In this document: piece after piece, positions 9,621 through 12,153 of the stretch
Layout: every line of letters starts with the position of its first letter
Numbering within the stretch: position 1 is the first letter of the stretch
From: Salinispira pacifica
GTDB taxonomy: Bacteria > Spirochaetota > Spirochaetia > DSM-27196 > Salinispiraceae
Length of the DNA stretch: 64,000 nucleotides
Reading direction: 5' to 3'
Assembly: GCF_000507245.1 (NCBI RefSeq)
Contig: NC_023035.1
Location: 3,205,570 to 3,269,569, forward strand
Notes under the pieces: generated by a model
Seen by the model: only the letters and a program-made list of their open reading frames with translations
The model's database searches: none
Told to the model about the DNA's origin: nothing
Position numbers and translations under genes: made by a program

Positions 9621-10637
9621 ATGGGAATACTGGTGGAGAAAGTTCGCAGCGGCGAAATACGCAGCAGAAGCGGGCTGGAGGCGGCATTCAGACAGCTGAG
9701 CAAACGCTATCACCCCGATACATCGGGCTTGGATCACCGCTACTTCGTTTCCATCTGCATGGACCGGGACGACGCCATCATATTGCTGGAAGAGTATGCC
9801 GCCGGCTCTGTTCCCGGTGAACAGGATTCCCCCAAAGCTGATACGGATTTCTGGTATCTGTATTATCTATACAGCTCAAGAATGCAGTATCAGCATAAAG
9901 ACAGGGACGGCTCTGCCCGGTTAACATCCGAACTTATTGCATCAGCAGGATCAGTATCTGATGAATTTATGGCGGGGATATTCATTTACACTAAGCATCA
10001 CTCCACAACGAACTATGCAGATATGTACAGCATACCAACCTGTCAGCAGATCCATATGGGTATGGCCAATTTTCTTGAATGGAAGGAGCGGTCCTCCGGC
10101 GATACCCCTGCACATATTATTCGGCGGTCTTACAATATTGCCCGCACCATGCTGAGTGAAGCGGAAGAACGGCTGGGGAAACCGGCGGGTGAGGACTATC
10201 TGCATATGTATCCCCTGATCAGGCTTGCTCTCCTGGATTTATCCCGGGGACAAATATCCAACTCAAGGCCGCCTGTCCCGGAAGATTTATACCGTCCGCT
10301 GTATACCCTGGCGTGCCGCCTCCATGAAGAGTGGAACCCTGACGCCATACCGCCGGATTCCTCCAAGGAACCGCTGAGGCAACGGGCGGAATGGATTCGC
10401 AAGGCGTTAATACACCTGGGGCTGGTGGAGAAACAGTATGCGTATATTCGTGCTGTATTCTCCCCCGACACAATGAGGGAGATTCGCCGGTTTAAAGGAG
10501 CCGAAGGCGAGATAGCCGTTCCGGAATACTACGGGGAACTTCTTTCCAGGCATAAAAAGATTCTTGTGGAGATTCAGGAAATGAGCCTACAGCGCCAGAG
10601 GCTTTTGGAGAGATTAACCCGGAGCCGGCATAGGTGA
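9621..10637 (+). CDS. J-domain-containing protein of unknown function
   Basis: This 338-residue protein has an N-terminal J-domain-like segment: a helix AAFRQLSKRY followed directly by the HPD tripeptide (HPDTSG, at about residues 31-33) and a further helix RDDAIILLEEY. The HPD loop is the element by which DnaJ proteins stimulate Hsp70. Helix I and the spacing are not canonical, so this may be a diverged J domain. The remaining ~270 residues are helical, with no zinc-finger or G/F region, and are not recognised. It is divergent from the MFS gene (41-bp gap). A co-chaperone role is an inference. Confidence 0.65.
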   Translation: MGILVEKVRSGEIRSRSGLEAAFRQLSKRYHPDTSGLDHRYFVSICMDRDDAIILLEEYAAGSVPGEQDSPKADTDFWYLYYLYSSRMQYQHKDRDGSARLTSELIASAGSVSDEFMAGIFIYTKHHSTTNYADMYSIPTCQQIHMGMANFLEWKERSSGDTPAHIIRRSYNIARTMLSEAEERLGKPAGEDYLHMYPLIRLALLDLSRGQISNSRPPVPEDLYRPLYTLACRLHEEWNPDAIPPDSSKEPLRQRAEWIRKALIHLGLVEKQYAYIRAVFSPDTMREIRRFKGAEGEIAVPEYYGELLSRHKKILVEIQEMSLQRQRLLERLTRSRHR

Positions 10638-10646
10638 TGCATTGAT

Positions 10647-10788
10647 AGTGCACAGAAGCTTGTGAAAAATAATGATTTTTCACAGGGAAGCGGAAACCTC
10701 CCCTCCAGGTAGTGCGGCGTAAAATTTGACGCCGCCATATCTGGAACCGATTTCCCGGATTTTTTTGTTTTACAAGCTTCTGTGCACT
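10647..10788. mobile_element. MITE-like element with 17-bp terminal inverted repeats
   Basis: A 142-bp non-coding segment is bounded by perfect inverted repeats, AGTGCACAGAAGCTTGT at 10647-10663 and its complement at 10772-10788. Inside are further hairpins: GTGAAAAA/TTTTTCAC and GCGGCGT/ACGCCGC. The terminal sequence matches the left end of the insertion sequence at 63033 at 15 of 17 positions, so this looks like a non-autonomous derivative of that element. It lies 9 bp after the J-domain stop and just before the tRNA-Pro promoter. No clear target duplication is visible. Confidence 0.65.
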
Positions 10789-10813: not shown

Positions 10814-10841
10814 TTGACGAAACCGTGAATTTTCTTATAAT
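10814..10841 (+). promoter_or_regulatory. Sigma-70 promoter of tRNA-Pro
   Basis: TTGACG (10814-10819), a 16-bp spacer and TATAAT (10836-10841) form a near-consensus promoter. Predicted initiation is near 10848, giving a 5' leader of about 70 nt before the tRNA. The leader contains an ACGGAATC/ATTCCGT hairpin and a longer CTGAATG/CATTCAG hairpin. Confidence 0.75.
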
Positions 10842-10918
10842 GATCCACTCAATAACGGACGGAATCTGATTCCGTTCGCTGAATGCATTTGCGCACTGCG
10901 CTTCTGCCATTCAGAAAA

Positions 10919-10992
10919 CGGGCTGTAGCGCAGTGGTTTAGCGTACTTGTCTGGGGGACAAGGGGTCGCCGGTTCAAATCCGGCCAGCCCGA
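10919..10992 (+). tRNA. tRNA-Pro (anticodon GGG)
   Basis: A 74-nt cloverleaf is seen. The acceptor stem is CGGGCTG/CAGCCCG, with discriminator A. The D-arm is GCGC...GCGT. The anticodon stem is CTTGT/ACAAG with loop CTGGGGG, so the anticodon is GGG and decodes CCC/CCU. The T-arm is GCCGG-TTCAAAT-CCGGC. CCA is not encoded. A strong promoter precedes it. Its last 18 nt are duplicated in tandem downstream. Confidence 0.95.
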
Positions 10993-10998
10993 TTATAC

Positions 10999-11030
10999 AA
11001 AAAGGCCGATCCTTCGGGGTCGGCCTTTTT
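10999..11030 (+). terminator. Intrinsic terminator of tRNA-Pro (first of the series)
   Basis: A 9-bp stem, GGCCGATCC / GGGTCGGCC, closes on a TTCG tetraloop (C-UUCG-G, very stable) and is flanked by A5 and T5. It lies 7 nt after the tRNA 3' end. Near-identical copies occur at about 11191, 11379, 11569, 11758 and 12039. Confidence 0.9.
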
Positions 11031-11040
11031 GTATATATTG

Positions 11041-11217
11041 AATGAATCCGGATTTGAAGCCCTGAACCGGCGCGAAAACCTGGAGCGCTGAGGCCTCTGG
11101 ATGAGGCCGAAAGGTGAAGGGACGGGTCGAAGGGAGCCTGCTGGATGCAGGCGACTGGAGACCAAATCCGGCCAGCCCGATTATACAAAAGCCGATCCTC
11201 AGGGGTCGGCCTTTTTT
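11041..11217 (+). ncRNA. Candidate small RNA encoded by each repeat unit (first unit given)
   Basis: The segment between consecutive terminators could form a discrete RNA. CCGGATTT (11048-11055) can pair with AAATCCGG (11164-11171), enclosing two 6-bp hairpins with pentaloop TGGAT (11092-11108 and 11136-11152). The RNA would end at the terminator at 11191-11217. GGA in short hairpin loops is the known CsrA/RsmA recognition element. Four near-identical units follow (one first-hairpin loop is CGGAT). No clear promoter is seen inside the unit, so expression would need read-through from tRNA-Pro or processing. This is inferred from structure only. Confidence 0.35.
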
Positions 11218-11950
11218 GTATATATTGAATGAATCCGGATTTGAAGCCCTGAACCGGCGCGAAAACCTGGAGCGCTGAGGCCTCTGGATGAGGCCGAAAG
11301 GTGAAGGGACGGGTCGAAGGGAGCCTGCTGGATGCAGGCGACTGGAGACCAAATCCGGCCAGCCCGATTATACAAAAAGGCCGATCCTTCGAGGTCGGCC
11401 TTTTTTGGTATATATTGAATGAATCCGGATTTAAAGCCCTGAACCGGCGCGAAAACCTGGAGCGCTGAGGCCTCTGGATGAGGCCGAAAGGTGAAGGGAC
11501 GGGTCGAAGGGAGCCTGCTGGATGCAGGCGACTGGAGACCAAATCCGGCCAGCCCGATTATACAAAAAGGCCGATCCTTCGGGGTCGGCCTTTTTTGTAT
11601 ATATTGAATGAATCCGGATTTGAAGCCCTGAACCGGCGCGAAAACCTGGAGCGCTGAGGCCTCTGGATGAGGCCGAAAGGTGAAGGGACGGGTCGAAGGG
11701 AGCCTGCTGGATGCAGGCGACTGGAGACCAAATCCGGCCAGCCCGATTATACAAAAAGGCCGATCCTTCGGGGTCGGCCTTTTTTGGTATATATTGAATG
11801 AATCCGGATTTGAAGCCCTGAACCGGCGCGAAAACCTGGAGCGCTGAGGCCTCCGGATGAGGCCGAAAGGTGAAGGGACGGGTCGAAGGGAGCCTGCTGG
11901 ATGCAGGCGACTGGAGACCAAATCCGGCCAGCCCGAGATCTATGCAAAAA

Positions 11951-11976
11951 CGGAATCCGGTTGGATTCCGTTTTTT
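11951..11976 (+). terminator. Intrinsic terminator after the fifth repeat unit
   Basis: A perfect 8-bp stem, CGGAATCC/GGATTCCG with loop GGTT, is followed by T6 and preceded by A5. Its stem resembles the hairpin in the tRNA-Pro leader (ACGGAATC...), and it differs from the TTCG terminators of the other copies. Confidence 0.85.
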
Positions 11977-11990
11977 ATTGGTAGATCCGC

Positions 11991-12026
11991 CGGTTATCGC
12001 ACTCCGCGATAATCCGGCCAGCCCGA
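11991..12026 (+). repeat. tRNA-tail copy with an enlarged hairpin
   Basis: Here the tRNA tail is preceded by GCCGGTT, as in the real T-arm, but the T-loop is replaced by ATCGC-ACTCC-GCGAT. The result is a single long hairpin (GCCGGTTATCGC paired with GCGATAA-T-CCGGC, one bulge). It may be a remnant of a second tRNA-like copy. No full cloverleaf can be formed upstream. Confidence 0.45.
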
Positions 12027-12153
12027 TTATACAAAAAAGGCCGATCCTTCGGGGTCGGCCTTTTTTGTATATATTGAATGAATCCGGATTTGAAGCGAAC
12101 CCTCGGCGCGACCGCAGAGGGATTCGTTTGGCGAAATGATCTCAATTGAGTCT

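Follow-up and report, generated by a model that had tools for sequence, protein, structure and literature searches.

Tandem repeats behind tRNA genes in spirochaetes: a conserved structured RNA that may act through CsrA

The tRNA-Pro(GGG) locus

The DNA analysed is a 64-kb window of the Salinispira pacifica genome, and coordinates without a prefix refer to this window. It contains a tRNA-Pro(GGG) gene (10919-10992, plus strand; ARAGORN, and Rfam tRNA at 64.9 bits), which is the source of the tail copied in every unit of a tandem array on the same strand. A probable tRNA promoter, TTGACG-16-TATAAT, lies at 10814-10841 (plus strand; 11 of 12 matches in a consensus scan), and a terminator hairpin at 10994-11035 (inverted repeat I18) separates the tRNA from the first unit.

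TRF describes the array as 5.1 copies with a period of 190 and 97% matches (10975-11936). The exact 18-nt tail is found at 10975, in the tRNA itself, and again at 11163, 11350, 11540, 11729 and 11919, and the units measure, in order, 188, 187, 190, 189 and 190 bp. This confirms the original prediction of five units of 187-190 bp bounded by the last 18 nt of the tRNA. Each unit extends from one tail copy to the next; in between come, in order, a terminator hairpin, an antisense strand that can pair with the tail, and a GC-rich core.

The RNA cores (stems P1 to P3, all on the plus strand) occupy 11046-11175, 11233-11362, 11423-11552, 11612-11741 and 11802-11931, with tail copies at 11163-11180, 11350-11367, 11540-11557, 11729-11746 and 11919-11936. 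They score 105.5 bits with covariance model R1 (see below), apart from unit 3 (103.4 bits); unit 1 scores 103.2 bits with a second model, R2. In unit 1, hairpins P2b (11092-11108) and P3 (11136-11152), located from sequence and structure, both have the loop UGGAU, a GGA loop that in P2b is of the CsrA type. The fold of unit 2 has an energy of -60.8 kcal/mol (z -4.6), and the core of unit 1 is identical to it in sequence.

Terminator hairpins, all detected as inverted repeats, follow unit 1 (11187-11216, with a variant loop), unit 2 (11374-11405), unit 3 (11564-11595), unit 4 (11753-11784) and unit 5 (11946-11975, I23); those behind units 1 and 3 were also reported by the consensus scan, and the last is unrelated to the others. 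A C(UUCG)G hairpin had been proposed for every unit: the hairpins are there, but the loop is not universal (CTCAG in unit 2, TTCGA in unit 3). Similarly, variation had been thought to be confined to loops and T-runs. Two of the nine variable columns across the five units are in the core, the others being in the terminator stem, loop or T-run.

The repeat region had been drawn to 12097. There is no sixth full unit in 11937-12097, which contains, besides the different terminator, a degenerate mini-unit (11987-12026, from sequence and fold) made of a hairpin and a 16-nt tail copy (12011-12026) without a core, and then a last terminator with the first bases of a truncated unit (12028-12097; sequence, DNA search and inverted repeat). 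Since a single 3.78-Mb contig carries seven arrays of differing copy number, an assembly artefact is unlikely.

Two other interpretations of the array were rejected. A promoter in each unit (TATATT after the terminators) proved to be the lower terminator stem; it is absent in some relatives, and the promoter consensus scan reported no promoter-like site inside the repeats. A coding repeat was considered because minus-strand ORFs of 235-240 aa cross the array, yet the pattern of conservation is that of RNA helices. These ORFs (10835-11921, minus strand), which lie antisense to the array, overlap one another, are repetitive and reach 240 aa; they probably do not code for protein, and they recall the tpr ORF of E. 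coli rttR.

A family of units across spirochaetes

When the genome was searched at the DNA level, tRNA-Pro(CGG) proved to be followed by an array as well. Among 60 relatives that were searched, units were found singly or in groups downstream of tRNA-Pro and tRNA-Leu. R1, built from nine units, then gave at least 25 copies in this genome. They form seven clusters, and every cluster immediately follows a tRNA gene, namely Pro(GGG), Pro(CGG), Leu(GAG), Leu(CAG), Leu(TAA), Met(CAT) and Asn(GTT). There are 2-6 units per locus here and often only one in relatives.

R1 matched 28 of the 46 genomes searched in the order and at least 76 of 392 in the phylum, the latter being a lower bound because only eight candidates were scored per genome. 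Some of these genomes are MAGs, counts of genomes without units are unreliable, and the E-values of home-made covariance models such as R1 and R2 are rough. With a degenerate DNA pattern applied to GTDB genomes, nearly all of the matches listed were in spirochaetes (Treponema, Brucepastera, Breznakiella and Sediminispirochaeta). Three of the listed loci are in groundwater MAGs labelled Deltaproteobacteria, directly behind tRNA-Ser (L172:1153-1505, L186 and L229); in L229 the tail copy includes the encoded CCA, as in E. coli. One unit lies behind a tmRNA (L079).

A same-strand tRNA or tmRNA, of 14 kinds in all, was found upstream of 129 of 140 units; most of the remaining 11 have little upstream sequence (for example, at contig ends). 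The check proposed with the original prediction, a search for repeats beside tRNAs in related spirochaetes, was thus strongly positive in both order and phylum. The array as a peculiarity of this one tRNA, or as a by-product of duplication, is not borne out, as tRNAs or tmRNAs of at least 14 kinds are followed by a conserved, covarying core. The near-identity of the five units can be put down to unequal crossing-over, as was also suggested, but the family cannot.

A related reading is that the units are passive or selfish tRNA-linked repeats, produced by recombination or slippage between tail copies, which always leaves an intact tRNA, with the core as a harmless stable spacer. The near-identical units, the copy number of 2-6 among loci of one genome and the core-less and truncated units at the end of the array all agree with this. 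So does an orphan unit, probably a relic, which is preceded by a terminator but has no tRNA (L130:808-937; G000:C1:2447807-2447936). We nevertheless consider passive repeats rather unlikely, on the evidence of the fold and of the tail copies given below.

In an Rfam scan of the window only the tRNA itself exceeded the cut-off, and no family matched the repeat RNA. Matches to Thr_leader were rejected as an identity for the repeats, being mere terminator hairpins. A search of the literature on Treponema transcripts found nothing on the repeat loci.

Secondary structure and covariation

The unit RNA is about 130 nt long and is closed by stem P1, in which the antisense strand pairs with the copy of the 3' end of the neighbouring tRNA. 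P1 is followed by a three-way domain, formed by P2 together with the two stems within it, P2a and P2b, and by P3, a hairpin arm with GA-rich internal loops. P2a is a GC stem and in many units has tandem G-A pairs.

The three-way domain covaries. In the alignment of 133 distinct units, both partners change in 40 of 41 pairs, there are 1501 compensatory cells, and 91.8% of cells are paired. The covariation score is 0.658, compared with 0.05-0.09 when partners are slid. The alignment of these 133 units was fitted to the model and is thus biased towards structure. A MAFFT alignment of nine units, read against a hand-drawn structure of 41 pairs, agrees with it: 16 pairs changed on both sides. The unit is almost certainly a conserved structured RNA. 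This speaks against passive repeats: compensatory changes occur in every helix throughout the class, and loops remain constant while stems vary, so that selection on the RNA is needed.

Mimicry of an acceptor minihelix of the RNase P type was also considered and is not supported, since the 10-bp core of P1 spans the T-loop and T-stem but reaches no further than the beginning of the acceptor, and since inserts disrupt the acceptor part of P1 in L009 and L013.

Correspondence between a unit and its own tRNA

The tail copy agrees with its own tRNA at a mean of 16.4 of 18 positions (exactly in 69 of 129 units), compared with about 10 for other tRNAs. From 57 to 73 the identity per position with the own tRNA is 0.78-0.99; with other tRNAs it comes to 0.2-0.5 where positions are variable. 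The limits are sharp: identity with the own tRNA is no more than 0.02-0.05 at T54-T55, and beyond 73 it is about 0.5. The antisense strand follows the same rule, its longest run of complementarity having a median of 12 nt to the own tRNA and 5 to other tRNA types.

At L014 the tail stays exact even where the following terminators are completely unrelated. A tract this short, lying between differing terminators, is too short for ordinary gene conversion, which is a second argument against passive repeats.

The same correspondence bears on another possibility, namely that the unit is a small mobile element which inserts at the 3' ends of tRNA genes and restores the tRNA tail as it does so. One core is found behind 14 kinds of tRNA or tmRNA, the insertion point (57/58) resembles that of tRNA-targeted elements, and on a viral contig a unit follows a tmRNA-like 3' end, which suggests a prophage junction (L276:4287-4520). 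But tail copy and antisense strand both fit each host tRNA, which simple insertion cannot produce, and this contig is the only match in 2.9 million viral contigs. We regard a mobile element as very unlikely. An origin from a phage or plasmid was rejected, as matches in the phage set cover only the tRNA.

Units in clusters of seryl-tRNA genes lie between tRNA genes, some just 15-34 nt behind one, which makes co-transcription very likely. In loci with a single tRNA the gap between tRNA and unit usually holds a terminator-like hairpin; for all loci together, a hairpin was called in 59 of 91 first gaps.

What sets the correspondence may be an exchange of tRNA 3' halves. The antisense strand of the first unit would capture the tRNA's own tail (from T54 to the acceptor), and the tail copy would replace it in the T- and acceptor stems. 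The precursor would then be bistable, and the unit would control folding, 3' processing or read-through of the tRNA. This would explain why both tail and antisense strand track their own tRNA. When the tRNA is folded with the first two units, the optimum is the swapped form, the 5' strands of the tRNA pairing with the tail copy and the antisense strand with the tRNA's own tail. In all 33 loci tested, the cloverleaf plus P1 is less stable than this form, by a mean of 8.8 kcal/mol. In addition, GAA, which is complementary to T54-C56, is part of the antisense strand in 116 of 129 units, though the tail copy itself has no TTC, and the antisense strand does not consistently extend into the 5' strand of the T-stem (position 53), which is the limit an exchange would need.

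When GAA is barred from pairing, the swapped fold is still favoured by 5.6 kcal/mol (30 loci having GAA). GAA is thus worth only 3.2 of the 8.8 kcal/mol and the remainder comes from loop terms, so that the preference is partly generic; GAA may simply be structural. Nearest-neighbour energies omit the tertiary contacts and modifications of the tRNA, which also folds first during transcription, and for these reasons we treat the exchange as hypothetical. It is also silent on the conserved core and its loops. On these folding models, the exchange, taken together with its consequence for the tRNA, seems unlikely.

Comparison with known repeats and small RNAs

First described in 1978, the E. coli tRNA-linked repeats (TLRs) have yet to be assigned a function (PMC8144298). 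The spirochaete units share several of their features: a same-strand position behind a tRNA, identity with its tail (over 18-19 nt in TLRs and 18 nt in the window) and units of about 180 bp (187-190 bp here). TLR loci are defined as having one to five units; those of this genome have 2-6. As in RtT/rttR behind tyrT-tyrV (RF00391), tandem units follow the tRNA and each carries its last 16-19 nt from position 58. The likeness to E. coli tyrT, with a different tRNA in a different phylum, had been pointed out from the sequence. It is correct and goes deeper, as in both cases a multibranched RNA is closed by pairing between the tail copy and an antisense strand upstream of it. The tyrT units also share a module (stem-GA-GC-loop-GC-GA-stem) followed by a hairpin.

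There are differences. In the E. coli TLRs a P3 arm is not clearly recognisable and the P2b-like hairpin lacks a GGA loop; they are known at ten loci, whereas the spirochaete family spans a whole class and at least 14 kinds of tRNA or tmRNA. RF00391 gave no match in this genome (G000) or in genome G007 (the E. coli control was positive), and none in the window at E-values up to 5. R2, applied to the tyrT and rrnB regions of E. coli, ranks four E. coli copies at the top in the correct register, but at marginal scores (9.5-16.2 bits, E 0.08-0.002). From sequence and predicted fold the family appears to be TLR-like, of the same kind as the E. coli TLRs, with homology by model being marginal.

A second group of E. 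coli TLRs, the rRNA-linked RrA, RrB and RrF, also lies between terminators next to stable RNA genes and has GGA hairpin loops (CAGGACG); these repeats are transcribed by read-through, and their GGA loops bind CsrA in vitro (PMC8144298). They are unlike the spirochaete units in being linked to 5S rRNA, with one unit per operon, and the fold is not recognisably shared.

CsrB/RsmZ-type sRNAs resemble the units in having hairpins with CAGGA(U/A/C)G or ANGGAN loops, and tandem units would multiply such sites. CsrB-type RNAs are free-standing genes. The spirochaete units differ in lying within tRNA transcription units, in having one or two conserved loops each and in their tRNA-matched closing stem. 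The Rfam CsrB model scored 15.7-17.4 bits on the window, with a cut-off of 71.

CsrA as a candidate ligand

The best single guess for a ligand of the units is CsrA, and we put the probability that its binding is a main function at roughly 40%. In P2b the stem varies freely, but 124 of 133 units have the loop C-A-(N)-GGA-N-G. In most units the P3 loop is C-A-[G/C]-GA-N-G, of the GGA type in 77 of 133 and of the CGA type in about 50 of 133. Hairpins from the gap between tRNA and unit have GGA in only 3 of 96 loops. The repeats of CsrB have the sequence CAGGA(U/A/C)G, and the loops bound by RsmE are ANGGAN (PMC7652899; PMC5027483). RrB, the rRNA-linked repeat of E. coli, binds CsrA in vitro through GGA motifs, and binding is lost when three GGAs are changed (PMC8144298). 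Its loop, CAGGACG (as read from the rrnB region), is also common among the spirochaete units. The match of the P2b loop to the CsrA-binding motif of CsrB, with RrB as a precedent, favours a CsrA-binding RNA co-transcribed with tRNAs. The csrA gene is present in this genome and in 76 of 80 carrier genomes.

Under such a scheme, read-through from the tRNA promoter would transcribe the units, so that their amount would follow tRNA transcription and growth rate. Processing of the tRNA 3' type, together with the terminators, would free the units, and the exposed GGA hairpin loops (P2b, often P3) would bind CsrA. Tandem units would then act as a growth-coupled CsrA sponge, beside the protein antagonist FliW.

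Evidence against CsrA comes from four carriers without csrA and fliW that keep the RNAs. The loss of csrA looks real, as fliW is missing too. These genomes mostly retain GGA loops (16 of 22 units in P2b and 20 of 21 in P3), which weakens the case for CsrA. Loss of the P2b loop is only marginally more frequent, in 6 of 22 csrA-less units compared with 2 of 33 in csrA-positive members of two of the same genera (p = 0.049), and p is 0.0025 against a wider csrA-positive set; the test is small and carries no phylogenetic correction. Loss of the P3 loop shows no effect of csrA absence in the same small sample. The CGA form of many P3 loops and the low score of the Rfam CsrB model also count against CsrA. 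For the E. coli tRNA-linked repeats, the prediction is that they do not bind CsrA (PMC8144298). Finally, CsrA sponging leaves the identity of the tail with the neighbouring tRNA unexplained.

The two ideas could be combined. The unit would be a cis-acting exchange switch that controls tRNA maturation or read-through, with CsrA or a similar protein on the GGA loops of the core setting the balance. Judged from the models, we think this combination quite improbable.

The spirochaete units provide a second and far larger TLR-like set, with a conserved fold, covariation and a candidate protein ligand. With these, and with csrA-minus genomes as a natural control, the question of TLR function becomes directly testable. 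Going by sequence, the E. coli repeat looks like part of a broad RNA class that may act through CsrA. If the units do bind CsrA, tRNA transcription, and hence growth rate, would be coupled to a global post-transcriptional regulator; if they exchange 3' halves, tRNA genes would carry their own refolding switches.

Other repetitive elements

Two dispersed hairpins have copies inside tail copies of units. One, CATGGCCGAGC-(stem-loop)-GACCAGG, has seven exact copies in the genome, all on the plus strand, and by its look is a REP-like mobile hairpin. Its sites include L009:1290-1320, L130:1498-1540 and G000:C1:1166146, 1556181 and 1563886; three copies are inside tail copies of the Pro(CGG) array and at least one is seemingly in a coding region. 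The other, GTACCGCA-(stem-loop)-GAGGAAC, is absent from the window and occurs at L130:1380-1455 and L013:1100-1723 (reverse strand), with one copy inserted in the tail copy of a relative's unit. Within the window, a 142-bp MITE-like element with 26-bp inverted ends (AGTGCACAGAAGCTTGTGAAAAATAA) lies at 10647-10788, between an ORF ending at 10637 and the tRNA.
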